From a virus, in IMG/VR virus record IMGVR_UViG_3300030107_001040, positions 1-64,000 of that record: a stretch of DNA of 64,000 nucleotides; one strand, given 5' to 3'. The translations under genes and the position numbers were made by a program. Under the pieces are notes generated by a model. The model was not told the origin of the DNA and did not search any database. It saw only the letters and a program-made list of their open reading frames with translations. Positions within the stretch are counted from its first letter, which is position 1. The number at the start of each line of letters is the position of its first letter. This document shows, piece by piece, positions 10,870 through 26,189 of the stretch.

Positions 10870-11550
10870 ATGACTTTTACTTTTGTTGATGTTGACCTCA
10901 AAGTTCCAGAGGTTGAACCTGTGAATAGAGATGGAGTTAGGTTCTACCCTATTCCTGGTGCTGATAAATATTATCCAAGCGTTACCTCAATCACATCGTT
11001 TAAGAACGCAGCTTTCTTCGCAGGTTGGAGAAAGAGAATAGGTGAAGAAGAGGCGAATCGTATCACTGCTAGAGCTACACAAAGAGGAACAGCGTTCCAT
11101 AATATCACTGAAGATTATATTAATGATGAATTAAATCTCAACAAATACTTGGCAAACAATCCATTATCTGTTAGAATGTTTCAAGCATCTAAGGATACTC
11201 TTAATCGGATTGATAAGATACATTGTTTAGAAACTTTTCTATACTCTCATTATCTTGGTCTTGCTGGTAGAGTTGACTGTATTGCCGAGTTTGATGGTGA
11301 GTTAGCAGTTATCGATTTCAAAACTTCTACTAAAGAAAAACAAGAGAACTATATTGAACATTACTTTGTTCAAGAAACTGCATACGCAGCAATGTTCCTT
11401 GAGCGTTCAGGCATTGAGGTCAAGAAAATTGTCACACTTATCACAACCGAGGAAGGATCTGTTCAAGTATTTGAGAAGTACAATCTTGATGACTATTTAC
11501 AATTACTCAAGTCCTACATTGAAGAATTTGTTAGGGGAAAAAATGCCTAA
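10870..11550 (+). CDS. PD-(D/E)XK exonuclease, RecB-type
   Basis: 226 aa. Core motifs are in order: H77 in RGTAFH, GRVD136, D149-F-K151 and the QxxxY motif (Q168, Y172). This is the RecB/Cas4-like nuclease layout found in many T4-like cyanophages. It probably acts in recombination or DNA repair. It follows phoH without a gap and overlaps gp33. Confidence 0.85.
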   Translation: MTFTFVDVDLKVPEVEPVNRDGVRFYPIPGADKYYPSVTSITSFKNAAFFAGWRKRIGEEEANRITARATQRGTAFHNITEDYINDELNLNKYLANNPLSVRMFQASKDTLNRIDKIHCLETFLYSHYLGLAGRVDCIAEFDGELAVIDFKTSTKEKQENYIEHYFVQETAYAAMFLERSGIEVKKIVTLITTEEGSVQVFEKYNLDDYLQLLKSYIEEFVRGKNA

Positions 11551-19133: not shown

Positions 19134-19844
19134 ATGGCATTACCTACGTTAAATACCCCACGCTTCAAAATGAAGCTACCGTCTACAGGACAGGCGATAA
19201 ATTATAGACCTTTTCTTGTAAAAGAAGAAAAAGTGCTTCTTATCGCAACTGAGACGGGTGACCAGAATAGCATTGTAAACGCTATTAAGGATATCATTGC
19301 AGCTTGCACTGATATTAAGAATGTTGATGATTTACCAACTTTTGATATTGAGTTCGTTTTCCTCCAAATCCGAACTAAGTCTGTTGGTGAAAGTGTTGAT
19401 GTTCAAGTCATTTGTCCAGATGATGAAGAAACTCAAGTGGAAGTAAAAATTCCATTAGATGAAATCAAAGTCGTAAAGACTAGGGGTCATAAAACGGAAA
19501 TTAAATTGGATGAGGAAGTTGTTTTAACAATGGGATATCCAAGTTTGGATACTTTCGTTAAAATGAACTTTACTGAAGAAGAATATGGAGCTGATCAAAT
19601 ATTTGAAATGGCAGCTAGTTGCATAAAGCAAATTGCTGATCCTGAGCAAGTATATGACTGCACTGATCTTCCTAAGAGTGAAGTAATTGAATTTATTGAA
19701 GGAATGAGTTCTGCACAGTTCAAGAAGGTTCAAGACTTTTTTGAAACTATGCCAAAACTCTCCCATACAGTTAAGGTTACAAATCCAAATACTGAAAAAG
19801 AGAACGAAATTAAACTGGAAGGTTTAGCGGCTTTTTTCGGTTAG
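19134..19844 (+). CDS. gp26: Baseplate hub assembly protein gp26
   Basis: 236 aa. The N-terminal MALPTLNTPRF and RPFLVKEEKVLLIA, then ICPDD and the EEVVLTMGYPSL region fit the T4 gp26 family of hub proteins. In tailed phages this position before the tape measure is that of the tail assembly chaperone. The last codons contain a T6C slippery run; see the gp51-like frame. Confidence 0.85.
   Translation: MALPTLNTPRFKMKLPSTGQAINYRPFLVKEEKVLLIATETGDQNSIVNAIKDIIAACTDIKNVDDLPTFDIEFVFLQIRTKSVGESVDVQVICPDDEETQVEVKIPLDEIKVVKTRGHKTEIKLDEEVVLTMGYPSLDTFVKMNFTEEEYGADQIFEMAASCIKQIADPEQVYDCTDLPKSEVIEFIEGMSSAQFKKVQDFFETMPKLSHTVKVTNPNTEKENEIKLEGLAAFFG
19832..19838 (+). other. Candidate -1 frameshift site (TTTTTTC)
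   Basis: In the gp26 frame the bases read T TTT TTC, a canonical X-XXY-YYZ heptamer, two codons before the gp26 stop. GGAAGG (19817-19822), Shine-Dalgarno-like, lies 9 bases upstream, as in dnaX-type frameshift sites. A 9-bp hairpin begins 14 bases downstream. Confidence 0.7.
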
Positions 19845-20038
19845 CCCTCCTTCATAATAATCTTCGTAATTATTATGACACTAACTTTGCACTGATACAT
19901 CATCATAAATGGCAAATTGATCATATAGACAATCTCATGCCTTGGGAAAAAGAGATCTATGTGAAAATGTTGGTAGATTTCCTCAAAGAAGAGGAAAATC
20001 GTATGAAGGAGCAACAAGCACAACAAGCAGCTAGTTGA
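19832..20038 (+). CDS. gp51: gp51-like frame, expressed as gp26-gp51 fusion by -1 frameshift
   Basis: Open without a stop from the slippery run to the TGA at 20036. After slippage it adds 66 aa to gp26 (RLALLHNNLRNYYDTNF... to QQAAS), giving about 301 aa. The extension is helical (PWEKEIYVKMLVDFLKEEE) like small gp51-type proteins. It lacks a start codon: the first in-frame ATG is at 19937, inside the conserved-looking part and without a Shine-Dalgarno. Its TGA overlaps the next ATG. Confidence 0.7.
   Translation, partial: FFRLALLHNNLRNYYDTNFALIHHHKWQIDHIDNLMPWEKEIYVKMLVDFLKEEENRMKEQQAQQAAS
19853..19877 (+). other. Hairpin downstream of the frameshift site
   Basis: CATAATAAT (19853-19861), 7-base loop, ATTATTATG (19869-19877): a perfect 9-bp stem inside coding sequence. 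AT-rich, so moderately stable; a possible frameshift stimulator. Confidence 0.6.
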
Positions 20039-23000
20039 TGGCTAAAATAGTACCATATAAATTTGTTAATCCTGGGAGTTCAGGGGTAAAGACTCTTTCC
20101 TCTACTGGTCCTAGGACGTTTTTGCTGGCTACCAATAAAATTGGTAAAACAGTAACTGGTTTGGGTGCTATTGCTAAAGATATACATGCTATATCTCTTG
20201 CCAGAACGAAGAATGATAAGTTGCAGGAGAAGGCGGAGCGTCGCAAATTAAGAAGAGAGCGAGATCAAGCCGCTGAAGATAATATGGAGCGTAGAAACGC
20301 TCTAATGGGTAAAGGGATTAAAACTCCCAAAAAACCTGGAGGTAAACAGAAATCATCTTTAGATAGGATGATGGATAGTCTTCTTGGTGGTTTCATGGGG
20401 ATTTTAAGTACCGCCATGAAGTTTATTGCCATGATTGGTGGTTGGATGGCCACCAAAGAGATAATGGAATGGATGGCAAATCCTGCGAATAAGAAAAAAT
20501 TAGAGATTTTTCTTAAAAGGACGGATTTTGTTATTAGGAAAATTGCAAGTTTTGCATCAGGTAGTGTAACGAAAGTCTTGGATGGATTTTCTGCACTTGT
20601 AGATAAAGATAAAAGTTTTATTGGTAGACTAAAAGGATTTGGGACACTTTTAGTAGGAATAGTTGGATTAGGAGCCCTTTTAAATCCATTTGGAATGATG
20701 GATGCTATTCTGCAGTTGTTGAATTTAGACTTCTACAGAGATAGAGGTAGAGGAAGAGATAGGGGTAAAGGTAAAGGACGATCAACATCTACCCCTAGAG
20801 GTAAAACTCCGAATTGGAAGAAAGTTACCAGAACTAGCAATAATGTTGCTAGAAGGTTTGGTAAAAATGGTAGTAGAGTATACCGAGATGCTCTTAAGCA
20901 AGGATTAAGTGAGTCACAAGCACTTAAGAGAGTAAAGAGATTAGCAAATAAGAAACCAGGCGCATTTAGACCACCACCTAAGACATCAGGTCTAACACCA
21001 GGAACTGCTAAGACAGGGAGGGTTCTTAGCAGAGGACTTCAAAGGGGTATGGGTAGAGGAGCACTTAAGTTCCTAGGTCCAGCAAACTTGAAGTTACTTA
21101 AAGGTGCGTTTAAACAAACCTTTGGTAGAATTCCTATATTTGGAGCGATATTAACAGGTCTATTCTCCATTCTTGCAGGGGATCCTTGGCAAGCGGCACT
21201 ATTTAAAACTGCAGGTGCTGCTATTGGTGGAGCATTAGGTACACTTATCCCACTTCCAGGTATCGGTAGTCTTATCGGTATGATGGGTGGTGAATATGTT
21301 GGTGAACTTTTATATATTGGTTTCTCAGGTGGAGGTTGGAAAAAAGCAGGTAAGAAGTTAAGAGAAGACTTGGTAGGTCTTTTCAACAACTTTACAAAGA
21401 TGCTTGGTTGGATCAAAAATGGTTGGACAAGATTCTATAAGGGTATTCCTAAGTTTAAGATACCTGATTTCCCTAAAGATCCGCCAGGTCTGCTCTCAAA
21501 AGTTTGGGGTGGTAATAAGATCTGGACTGGCTTAAAGGTAATGATGAAAGCCATGATGGGACCAATGGGTTTCATGCTTGGCAAGGAGGTACCTAACCCT
21601 GTTTGGATGCTTAATCTGACAGGAAATACATTCCCCTTATTACATAAATCGTTCTTCCCAACTGCAGGAACTACAGGTCAGGGTCAGGTAGAAGAAGGTC
21701 AAGCCATAAAAGGTGAGAAGTATTCTCCCGAAGATGGTTCAGATGGTGGAGATGCTACTGGAACCACTCAAGGTAAAGGAGAACCAATATACAACAAACG
21801 TGGAAGAATAGTTGGTTATACTGGTGATAAGAATAATACTACTTCTAGTTCTAGTTCTGCATATAAGAGTGATGTAAAATCTCCATTTAAAGGGAAGTCA
21901 GAGAGACAAAAAAATAGGCATGGTACTGGTGCTATAAGAGAAGATCATGCTTCAAAACCAGAATATCAGAACCAGTGGTGGGATTTTCTTGATGTATTTG
22001 AGAATAAGAAAGTTCATTCTCCATCAACACAGGGTTGGGGACCATTAGCACCAGGTGCTGGTGGTGATGCATACGGTGATTTCTTAAATAAACAACAACC
22101 AAAAAAGGATAAGAAAAGAGCATGGTGGGATCCTAGAGGTTGGGGATCTAAAGGTCCAATGGAAGGGAGTAGATCCCGATTTAAAGAAACTGGTGGTAAA
22201 TTATTAAAAGCTTATCCACGTTTGACACGTAAACAGTTCTTCTTAGGTAAAGTTTTTAAAGGTATTAGTAAAGCAGTATCTGGTGTTGTAAAAGGTGTAG
22301 GTAAGGCTGTTAGTGGAATTATGAATTCTCCACTTGGCAGTATTTTAGGTACTGTTGTGCCTATTGTATTCCCTGCTGCTGCACCGTTCATTTATGCAGC
22401 ACAGGGTATTAGTGCCTTATCTCAAGGCAATATTATGGGTGCCATTACTGCAGGTCTTGGAGCTGCATCTGGTTTCTCTACTCATTTTGGTAGTGGTAAA
22501 TTTGCTGCTGGAATGGATAAATTCTTCTCCACTGGAATTGGAGGAGTTGCTAAAGGATTTTTAAATGGTGGTATAGGTGGAGCTCTTGGTGGATTAACTA
22601 AGATGTTACCTGGTAATGTTGGTAACTTCTTAGGTAATGTTGGTGGATTCTTAAGGAATAACCCTGCCATTAGTGGACTTATTGGATCTATTCCTGGTCT
22701 TTCTAATATACCAGGATTGTCTCAAATGTTTGGTTTGGATAGTTTTGGTCCGCAAGGATTCTCTCCTATGGGATTACTTGGTAATATTGCTGATAATATG
22801 GGATTTGGTTCAATATTCCGAACTATTACAGGAATGATGGGTGGAGGAGGTCCAATGGCAATGTTGGGTGGTCTGAGAGAAATGGCTGCTGAACTTGGAG
22901 TTGATCCTGCAGTTCTTGGTGTTACGAGTCAAAATAAACCTACATTTGGTAAACATAGCAGAGGAACCTCTCAAGATTATGCTATGCAAGCAACAATAGA

Positions 23001-23106
23001 GTTTATGCCTGTACCTATGCTATTAGAGAAACTGGTAGCAATTGAACGACCAGTACCTATACCAAAACGTATTCCAGTACCAGTGCCACAACCACAACAA
23101 GCGTAA
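20038..23106 (+). CDS. Tape-measure-like tail protein 1 (1022 aa)
   Basis: Starts in TGATG overlap with the gp51-like frame. Basic, helical N-terminus (ERRKLRRERDQ), hydrophobic Gly/Ala segments (about 100-145, 200-230, 360-440) and a long Gly-rich C-terminus, ending in a Pro-Val-Gln repeat. Position after gp26 and size suggest the tail tape measure (gp29-like). It is paralogous to the next gene. Confidence 0.7.
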   Translation: MAKIVPYKFVNPGSSGVKTLSSTGPRTFLLATNKIGKTVTGLGAIAKDIHAISLARTKNDKLQEKAERRKLRRERDQAAEDNMERRNALMGKGIKTPKKPGGKQKSSLDRMMDSLLGGFMGILSTAMKFIAMIGGWMATKEIMEWMANPANKKKLEIFLKRTDFVIRKIASFASGSVTKVLDGFSALVDKDKSFIGRLKGFGTLLVGIVGLGALLNPFGMMDAILQLLNLDFYRDRGRGRDRGKGKGRSTSTPRGKTPNWKKVTRTSNNVARRFGKNGSRVYRDALKQGLSESQALKRVKRLANKKPGAFRPPPKTSGLTPGTAKTGRVLSRGLQRGMGRGALKFLGPANLKLLKGAFKQTFGRIPIFGAILTGLFSILAGDPWQAALFKTAGAAIGGALGTLIPLPGIGSLIGMMGGEYVGELLYIGFSGGGWKKAGKKLREDLVGLFNNFTKMLGWIKNGWTRFYKGIPKFKIPDFPKDPPGLLSKVWGGNKIWTGLKVMMKAMMGPMGFMLGKEVPNPVWMLNLTGNTFPLLHKSFFPTAGTTGQGQVEEGQAIKGEKYSPEDGSDGGDATGTTQGKGEPIYNKRGRIVGYTGDKNNTTSSSSSAYKSDVKSPFKGKSERQKNRHGTGAIREDHASKPEYQNQWWDFLDVFENKKVHSPSTQGWGPLAPGAGGDAYGDFLNKQQPKKDKKRAWWDPRGWGSKGPMEGSRSRFKETGGKLLKAYPRLTRKQFFLGKVFKGISKAVSGVVKGVGKAVSGIMNSPLGSILGTVVPIVFPAAAPFIYAAQGISALSQGNIMGAITAGLGAASGFSTHFGSGKFAAGMDKFFSTGIGGVAKGFLNGGIGGALGGLTKMLPGNVGNFLGNVGGFLRNNPAISGLIGSIPGLSNIPGLSQMFGLDSFGPQGFSPMGLLGNIADNMGFGSIFRTITGMMGGGGPMAMLGGLREMAAELGVDPAVLGVTSQNKPTFGKHSRGTSQDYAMQATIEFMPVPMLLEKLVAIERPVPIPKRIPVPVPQPQQA

Positions 23107-23117: not shown

Positions 23118-26100
23118 ATGGCAAAGATATCACTAGCAAAATTTACTCCATATACACCTATAGCAGCAGGTGTTGCAACTCAAGCAGCCGCTAGTCAGGA
23201 AAGTAAGGCTGGGTCTGTCTATATGGCAAAAAGTATCCAAGCTTTTAATAATCTTGGTAATACTCTTAATTCTTTTGGTGGTGTTCTTAATGATATTAGA
23301 AAAATTGAACTTAAACGTTTAGAGTCTGAAAGGTTAAAATTAAGAAAATCAGCGTTTAAACCAATGTACGGCAAAGGCGAAATGCCTAAGTTTGCTGGTT
23401 TTATTAATGATTATATTGGGAGAGGTGCGCCTAAATTCTGGGAAGCGTTAGTTAATTTCTTTACTGCTCTATTAAAGTTTGCAATAATTCGTCCAGCTTT
23501 GAAATGGCTGGCGAATCCTGAAAATCATCAAAAAATTAAGAAAGTCCTAGAAACGCTTGCTTCTGTATTCAAATGGATTAGTAATTTCCTTCGAGGGAGG
23601 ATAGTAAACACCATCAATGGGCTTTATGATATGCTCAGGGATGATGCGACCTGGTGGCAACGACTGACGGGATTTGCAAAATCATTTGTAAATCTAGGAG
23701 CATTATTCTTAGGATTGCGATGGTTAACTAATCCTGTACGATTAATTAAAGATGTTAGGTGGGTTTTAACTACCTTCTATAAATCATTAACTAGATTCCA
23801 TAAAGGACTTTTAAGAGGTCGTGCAGGCCGATTAATGGGCGGTAAGTGGGGAACAGCAGCTAAAGTTGTAACTGCTGTTGCTGGAACAGCATATCTTGGT
23901 AAGAAAGCATTAGAACTTGGTGATGATGATCAACCAGCATTAGTTGATGGTGATCTACCACAAAGAGCAAAAGGTGGTTGGGTTACTGGACCAGATTCTG
24001 GATATGCTGTTTCTACATCACCTGGAAAAGGTAGTCCTGAATTTATTGGTCATGGAACTGAATATGTAGCTAAAAAAGCTGATGGTAGTAGTTTTGTAAT
24101 ACCATTCAACAACTTTGCTACAAGGCAAATGCCTGGGTTGACCATGGCCAATATGCAAATGGCTCATGCTCAGGGATTTGACCTTCCAAATTCACTTCCT
24201 AGATTGAGTGGTAAGGAACAATTCTTAGGTGGTGTTGGTAGTTGGTTTAAGAATAAATTTACTGATAATAAAGGTATATCTTCATTATGGCATAAGCCAA
24301 AGCAACAAAAACCAATGACTTTTGGTCAAAAATTTGCTGCTGGAAACAAAGGTTGGCAAGGTAGATTAGGCGATTGGATGAAAGGTGGTGGTGCCGCCCA
24401 GATAGGTGGATCATTATTTGGTAATAAAGGAGCTAGTATTGGTGGTGCCTTAACAACTTTATTTGGTGGTGGAGGTTCTGGTGAAGGTGGTAAAGCTACT
24501 GGATGGGATATATTTAAGAGTATTGGTGGTATTGCATCAACATTTATAAAACCAGGAAGTAAAGCTTCTAATATTCTTGGTATGGCAGGTGGTATTGGTA
24601 ATATGATGTTTGGACCAGGTGGCGAAGGTATGTCATTTGGTCAAAAACTTGGTGGACTTGCACAACAATTCTTAGGTGGAACTCCTGTTGGTGGTGCTAT
24701 TAGTGCTATTGCTGGAAGTGGTGGTCTTTCTGGTGGTATTGATTCTTTAGGTGGAGGAGTTGGTGGAGGTCACTCAGGTGGTGGTGGTGGACCTGGTAGC
24801 CAAGGTTCTGGTGGAATGTACCAGAAGAAGCAAGGTGGTGGAAGAATGGCAGTTACTGCTACTGGTAAGCAGATATTGTCTAAAGGATATAGTGTATTCA
24901 ACCATCCTGATTTTAAAAATAATAAATGGAAGAAAGGACCACCTAATAGAGGAGGAGCACATAAACCTGGTGGTGGACAGAGACATCCTAAAGGTGGACT
25001 TTATGGATTAGGTCTTGGATTAGATGCAGCATGGTATGGACCTGGTAATAAAAGTGCAAAAGCAAATTCATTAGCAGGTGAAATGTTTGGTAATAGAGAT
25101 GGTGCTAAATTAACTAATATCGTTAGTGATGGATGGGGATCATGGACAGAAGGTGGAAGTAAGAAAGGACCAGGTGGATATGGATATCCAGGAGTGGTAC
25201 ATTTAGGATTTGCTGATAGGCAAGTTGCTGGATCTGGTGTAATGGGAATGGGTGAAGCAGATTACACCCGAATGAAGCAAGCCATCATTGCTAATGCTGG
25301 AGATGCTGGACCAGAAGGTATGGCACTTGCTGCTAGATCTATCTTCAATCAAGCAAATGCTATTGATGGTGGCACAGGAAGTTCTGCTTTCCGTGGTGCT
25401 AAAACTATGTCCGATATACTTGGAAATTTAGGTATTGGTAGTGGTAAATATAGTCCTAACCAGTTAGGTAAGGCAGATGAAGCCATACAAATGGCATTTA
25501 ATACTCCTGCTATGGGTAAGATGATGACCAATTTAGGTTTATCAGAACCATATCAGGCACTTTTATTAAATTCTACTACCTTTAAGAAAGGTGGAACTCC
25601 GTTTGGAATAGGTTCTGATCCTATAGGAAAGTTCAAAAATTTAACTTTTGCTGCTAATGATCCTAAGATTGGTGAGATTTGGAAGAAGTCTGGTATTGGA
25701 GATACCGAAGACGCAAGAAATCAGTTGGATAAAGAAAATAAAGGTTATGTAAGTCCTCGTGAAAGGAAGTTTGGTCCGCAGCCAAAGAGCTCTGGATCAA
25801 GCACTGGAGCTGAAATGTCATCACCTAGTTCTGCTGCTAGTGGATCTATACTAGGAGCTAGTGCTAAAGGTACTAGTTCTAATATAGTTTCTGGTAAGGC
25901 TTCTGGAAATGAGCAGGACAGAAGAGAGTCCTATCATATGAAGAAGATACATAGAGAACGTGCTAGAGCACAAGAAGGTATCATGGGTAGGACACAACGT
26001 CTTGTCCAAGAAACTATGCAACAAGTGGAATCACATAATGCTGGTGTTCGTTCATCAGTAGCAGAAGCACAAGCATTTGTTCAAAAAGCAATGCAAGGTG

Positions 26101-26189
26101 GTGGAGGACAAGGTGGATTAGCATCTGCTAGTATGGGTTCTCGTAATAGAATACAGTCAGCAATGTCATTAACTTTAAATACCATTTAA
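23118..26189 (+). CDS. Tape-measure-like tail protein 2 with possible cell-wall hydrolase domain (1023 aa)
   Basis: N-terminal 250 residues share layout with the previous protein (WLANPEN versus WMANPAN, then TGFAKSFVNLGALFLGL versus KGFGTLLVGIVGLGAL). The middle is Gly-rich. Near residues 710-790 a segment (AGPEGMALAARSIFNQANAI, later YSPNQLGKADEAI) recalls SleB-type cell wall hydrolases, where the Glu is catalytic. A virion peptidoglycan hydrolase would suit, since the gp5 here has no lysozyme domain; this is inference. Confidence 0.65.
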   Translation: MAKISLAKFTPYTPIAAGVATQAAASQESKAGSVYMAKSIQAFNNLGNTLNSFGGVLNDIRKIELKRLESERLKLRKSAFKPMYGKGEMPKFAGFINDYIGRGAPKFWEALVNFFTALLKFAIIRPALKWLANPENHQKIKKVLETLASVFKWISNFLRGRIVNTINGLYDMLRDDATWWQRLTGFAKSFVNLGALFLGLRWLTNPVRLIKDVRWVLTTFYKSLTRFHKGLLRGRAGRLMGGKWGTAAKVVTAVAGTAYLGKKALELGDDDQPALVDGDLPQRAKGGWVTGPDSGYAVSTSPGKGSPEFIGHGTEYVAKKADGSSFVIPFNNFATRQMPGLTMANMQMAHAQGFDLPNSLPRLSGKEQFLGGVGSWFKNKFTDNKGISSLWHKPKQQKPMTFGQKFAAGNKGWQGRLGDWMKGGGAAQIGGSLFGNKGASIGGALTTLFGGGGSGEGGKATGWDIFKSIGGIASTFIKPGSKASNILGMAGGIGNMMFGPGGEGMSFGQKLGGLAQQFLGGTPVGGAISAIAGSGGLSGGIDSLGGGVGGGHSGGGGGPGSQGSGGMYQKKQGGGRMAVTATGKQILSKGYSVFNHPDFKNNKWKKGPPNRGGAHKPGGGQRHPKGGLYGLGLGLDAAWYGPGNKSAKANSLAGEMFGNRDGAKLTNIVSDGWGSWTEGGSKKGPGGYGYPGVVHLGFADRQVAGSGVMGMGEADYTRMKQAIIANAGDAGPEGMALAARSIFNQANAIDGGTGSSAFRGAKTMSDILGNLGIGSGKYSPNQLGKADEAIQMAFNTPAMGKMMTNLGLSEPYQALLLNSTTFKKGGTPFGIGSDPIGKFKNLTFAANDPKIGEIWKKSGIGDTEDARNQLDKENKGYVSPRERKFGPQPKSSGSSTGAEMSSPSSAASGSILGASAKGTSSNIVSGKASGNEQDRRESYHMKKIHRERARAQEGIMGRTQRLVQETMQQVESHNAGVRSSVAEAQAFVQKAMQGGGGQGGLASASMGSRNRIQSAMSLTLNTI

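Follow-up and report, generated by a model that had tools for sequence, protein, structure and literature searches.

Gp26 and gp51 are, as we take it from the literature, the tail assembly chaperones (TACs) of phage T4. Vladimirov, Gautam and Davidson (Virology 566:9-15, 2022) are said to have recognized which genes of T4-like phages encode TACs, with frameshifting reportedly being seemingly conserved in several T4-like groups and T4's own group using genes 26 and 51. PMC12846349 cites the same authors for T4-like phages whose TAC-N genes carry poly-T -1 frameshift signals, and PMC10885494 (PRFect) cites them for T4-like phages having one short and one long gene. The TAC-N and TAC-NC described in 2022 belong to the same gene family (gp26/gp51) as the locus analyzed here. 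A 2016 recoding review had described frameshifting of the G-T type as widespread among phages with long tails "except T4" (PMC5009743). In the TAC locus of phage Adele and in the Vandenendeviridae and Andersonviridae, which are phage families other than that of the virus studied here, TAC-N ends at an invariant poly-T (GTTTTT) -1 site, and the extension is conserved and often unannotated, as it is in relatives of our locus (PMC12846349). When compared with lambda gpG/gpGT and related siphophage TACs (Xu, Hendrix, Duda 2004), our locus differs in its slip heptamer, T_TTT_TTC, and in carrying a Shine-Dalgarno (SD)-like element 5' of the slip site, the likeness being one of analogy.

The DNA analyzed (the window) comprises the first 64,000 nucleotides of the 101,655-base IMG/VR virus record IMGVR_UViG_3300030107_001040, itself a fragment of a phage genome. 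Among named phages, T4-like cyanophages infecting Synechococcus and Prochlorococcus come closest to it at the locus (334 records, 60-80% nucleotide identity). The features of the locus are as follows.

19134..19844, + strand: gp26-like short product (TAC-N), zero frame, 236 aa; PF12322, E=9.4e-76; phrog_150, E=3.8e-86
19817..19822, + strand: SD-like GGAAGG, candidate stimulator, 9 nt 5' of the slip site; anti-SD pairing in the window -6.2 kcal/mol
19832..19838, + strand: slippery heptamer T_TTT_TTC; T_TTT_TT(C/T/A) invariant in 158/158 representatives
19842..19844, + strand: zero-frame stop TAG, one codon past the slip site; identical spacing in 148/158
19852..19878, + strand: 10-bp stem-loop, candidate stimulator, 13 nt 3' of the heptamer; MFE -6.6, z -6.85
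19838..20038, + strand: -1 frame extension with the TAC-C domain, 66 codons plus TGA; phrog_634 "baseplate hub assembly catalyst", E=8.7e-30; pN/pS 0.43; homology to the T4 gp51 C-terminus
20038..23106, + strand: next gene, 1022 aa, candidate tape measure by position and size; start overlaps the -1 frame stop

The gp26 ORF ends with GCG GCT TTT TTC GGT TAG, which places the heptamer in the phase GC[T TTT TTC], correct for tandem -1 slippage. The -1 frame opens at CGG (19838-19840) and closes at TGA (20036-20038), whose last base is also the first base of the ATG (20038-20040) of the next gene, and the predicted fusion product has 235+66 = 301 aa. The initial annotation had described a canonical heptamer two codons before the gp26 stop, GGAAGG 9 bases upstream of the heptamer, and a -1 frame that stays open over 66 codons and ends at a TGA overlapping the following start, and in these particulars it was accurate; the perfect stem that it placed downstream is also present, but with 10 bp and a distance of 13 nt rather than the 9 bp and 14 bases given. 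Among the 79 window ORFs of at least 80 aa, only gp26 combines an in-frame XXXYYYZ heptamer near the stop with a long -1 extension, which reaches 194 nt beyond the stop, the next best ORF reaching 32 nt. A second near-stop heptamer, in the ORF at 10870-11550, was rejected as being the SD sequence and start of the following gene. The 1022-aa next gene bears the PHROG label "endolysin", and we regard it as a candidate tape measure from its position and size. It lies in tandem with the gene at 23118-26189, and the two (~1022-1023 aa) have overlapping PHROG matches (790, 1200, 2588, 12696 and 17500) and look like diverged paralogues; their relatives are often annotated as "endolysin", while place and size suggest tape-measure-type proteins.

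Relatives were drawn from IMG/VR and from named phages, giving 276 loci with a gp26-type gene, which were clustered at 85% amino acid identity into 158 non-redundant representatives. A C-terminal domain in the -1 frame together with an in-frame slippery heptamer was found in 271 of the 276 loci, the five exceptions being two truncated contigs, RB43 (which has two genes), the Stenotrophomonas-type relative L198, whose run is T5, and a fragment that yielded no such domain. T_TTT_TT occurred in the same phase in all 158 representatives, the seventh base being C in 138, T in 16 and A in 4, and the zero-frame stop was exactly one codon past the slip site in 148. The same layout was present in phages of Aeromonas, Vibrio, Pseudomonas, Stenotrophomonas, Ochrobactrum, Pelagibacter and Nitratidesulfovibrio. 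The in-frame X_XXY_YYZ heptamer is kept beyond amino acid demands in all 158 representatives: the codon 5' of the TTT was always NNT (AGT, TCT, GAT, AAT, GCT, GGT or CAT), spanning six amino acids (S, D, N, A, G, H) with a constant third base. Against background codon use, log10 P was about -33 for the NNT codons and about -26 for TTT at the first F, both values assuming independent genomes, which these are not. In L198 (positions 1915-1930), the slip site has T5 instead of T6, so that gp26 enters a third frame; this is probably a sequencing error.

Purifying selection acts on the -1 frame. In the 50 of 158 representatives whose -1 frame begins with 18 codons free of ATG and GTG, pN/pS over codons 4 to 18 was 0.43 in that frame versus 1.29 in frame 0, the former being near the value of gp26 itself (0.52), and an FFR(I/L)AL... 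motif is conserved 5' of any usual start codon. The comparison of gp26 3' ends suggested in the initial annotation thus yielded an invariant heptamer and a downstream frame both conserved and selected. The arrangement is not due to chance, given the invariant phase of the heptamer, the constant NNT and the selected -1 frame. The conserved -1 domain stands without an annotated gene in Aeromonas phage AS-zj (L093:2762-2940) and Vibrio phage VH7D (L097:2007-2180), and other records place its start within gp26 or directly after it.

Across the 158 genomes, pairing with the anti-SD sequence is maximal 7-9 nt 5' of the heptamer (z about -10.7), which is the strongest signal in the final 300 nt of the gene and well above every other position. 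A strong SD-like element was found in 65% of the genomes lacking an early ATG and in 81% of those with one, versus 4.2% at control positions. The conserved Glu codon at this element is GAG in 98 of 133 cases (GAA in 35), against a background elsewhere in genes of 946 GAG and 2197 GAA (about 30% GAG). The distance from the element to the commonest early ATG is about 22 nt, too long for a ribosome-binding site, which favors a role as a frameshift stimulator. In dnaX an SD-like element acts in this manner, and we consider the element at our locus a strongly supported candidate stimulator.

Downstream, the window stem is perfect over 10 bp (19852-19861 with 19869-19878, 7-nt loop) and folds with an MFE of -6.6 kcal/mol (z = -6.85), none of 200 shuffles folding equally well. 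Across relatives the RNA is most stable directly past the slip site, where the mean z of -1.66 is the lowest among 18 positions tested, and stems of at least 10 bp occur in about 18% of relatives versus 1% of control positions. Strong hairpins in individual genomes fall into three main registers without a uniform position, and RNAalifold detected no consensus RNA structure across all relatives. In the commonest register (27 genomes), pairing exceeded permutation controls (z 6.8); for the window's own register, the permutation test detected no covariation (z -1.7). The SD-like element and the downstream hairpins are thus both enriched as sequence features with varying positions, and the hairpin is a moderately supported candidate stimulator.

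Gp26 and gp51 of T4 both belong to PF12322 and are paralogues. T4 gp26 ends at about the point where the zero-frame cyanophage product ends and therefore corresponds to the short form, whereas T4 gp51 corresponds to the full long form read in one frame and shares the same C-terminal domain. Phrog_634 matches T4 gp51 residues 147-246, and the TAC-C profile matches residues 207-246 of T4 gp51 and 194-245 of RB43 gp51, with no match to gp26 of either phage. The cyanophage "gp51" is, by homology, only the C-terminal domain of a T4-type gp51. The fusion anticipated by the initial annotation thus stands, but what follows in the -1 frame is less than a complete gp51 gene. T4 has two separate paralogous genes without a frameshift, in contrast to the single gene with a -1 site in the window phage, and only one PF12322 gene was found in the 101,655-base fragment, a second, long-form gene beyond that fragment being conceivable. 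The paralogy of the T4 proteins and the restriction of cyanophage "gp51" to the C-terminal domain suggest that TAC-N and TAC-NC would be made here by frameshifting and in T4 from two genes. Cyanophage and marine vibriophage gp51 proteins have been described as lacking approximately the first 200 residues, and cyanophage gp51 as having about 20% of the length seen in its counterparts (PMC3037559); this shortness would arise because the C-terminal domain is reached by frameshifting from gp26.

An alternative is that gp51 is a separate gene that initiates near the gp26 stop, by re-initiation or from a non-canonical start, and that no fusion is made. GenBank annotates such a gp51, starting just past the gp26 stop, in P-SSM2, P-RSM4, S-PM2 and others, and an ATG lies within 8 codons of the slip site in about half of the representatives, so a separate C-domain protein is possible in those phages too. 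The slip site is invariant, however, and the ATG is not: 30 of 158 representatives, the window among them, lack ATG, GTG and TTG over codons 1 to 18 of the -1 frame, and yet this stretch is conserved. In the window the first ATG is codon 34 with no earlier GTG or TTG, just as the initial annotation had noted. Even where an early ATG exists, the SD-like element is too far away to serve it, and T4 and RB43 hold the same domain fused in frame. We consider separate initiation in place of a fusion very unlikely. In many cyanophages, among them L081, L096 and L092, an ATG soon after the gp26 stop sits in a strong hairpin (for example GTATGTCTCA...TGAGACATAC) while being in frame with the -1 extension, which leaves room for a separately initiated C-domain.

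A shifted message could also come from slippage of RNA polymerase, instead of the ribosome, on the T6 run, and the conserved motif is indeed a homopolymer run of T6 to T7. The exact codon phase, the SD-like element and the downstream hairpins nevertheless typify -1 ribosomal sites, and the heptamer ends in C in 138 of 158 representatives, so that the T run stays at six, which argues against polymerase slippage; six U is also short for productive bacterial transcriptional slippage. This origin appears a shade less probable still than a self-initiated gp51. That run-length variants occur in the data, as in L198, might further suggest a pseudogene or a sequencing error in which one base was lost from a single continuous gene, but the identical T6 layout recurs in many independent isolates and metagenomes, and purifying selection acts on both frames. 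The conservation data lead us to reject this reading, whose probability we regard as negligible.

Programmed -1 frameshifting at the end of gp26 is thus very probably the means by which this virus of ocean bacteria would yield a short TAC-N and a long TAC-NC chaperone, as judged from the comparative sequence evidence, which strongly supports the lambda G/GT-like fusion initially proposed. The two proteins would be encoded from the single start codon of a T4-like cyanophage gene. The majority of ribosomes would terminate at TAG, releasing the 236-aa TAC-N (gp26), and a fraction would pause at T_TTT_TTC, aided by the upstream SD-like element and the downstream hairpin, slip back one base and read 66 more codons to give the 301-aa TAC-NC. 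If they resemble lambda gpG/gpGT in action, the two proteins may cover the tape measure and bring in tube subunits. Whereas the anatomy of the locus, its conservation, the selection on the -1 frame, the lack of a usable start and the homology of the fusion to T4 gp51 can be read directly from the genomes, the chaperone role is inferred, and so are ribosomal slippage and how efficient it is.

The predicted gp26 structure is of good quality (pLDDT 86) but gave no significant match in a search against the PDB; its best TAC match, to HK97 2OB9, was weak (E = 1.4-1.8, probability 0.14-0.20), and among predicted viral structures it matched best with baseplate hub proteins of the gp26 family and with uncharacterised phage proteins. 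Sequence searches of the PDB gave chance matches only with the profile and none with T4 gp51. As the TAC fold match is not significant, the proposed chaperone role rests on position, homology and the literature. T4 gp51 is reported not to be in the final particle.

The initial annotation was not aware of any description of frameshifting in gp26/gp51 of T4-like phages, but PMC12846349 cites Vladimirov et al. 2022 for such signals. With frameshifting in T4-like TACs already proposed in 2022, the window locus is a strong new example rather than a new mechanism, and, from its sequence, a well-supported further case of a published concept. It is also conceivable, if rather improbable, that relatives having both the slip site and an early ATG make TAC-N, TAC-NC and a free TAC-C, with frameshifting driven by the SD-like element and hairpin far above lambda's few percent; if this were true, three products and a higher frameshift rate would give T4-like tails a different chaperone stoichiometry. 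Frameshifting would also explain why gp51 is missing or doubtfully started in many records. It would mean that frameshifting and gene duplication, two encodings of one protein pair, coexist in one phage superfamily, in which the conserved -1 sites would form an easily testable set with T4 as a natural comparison lacking the frameshift.
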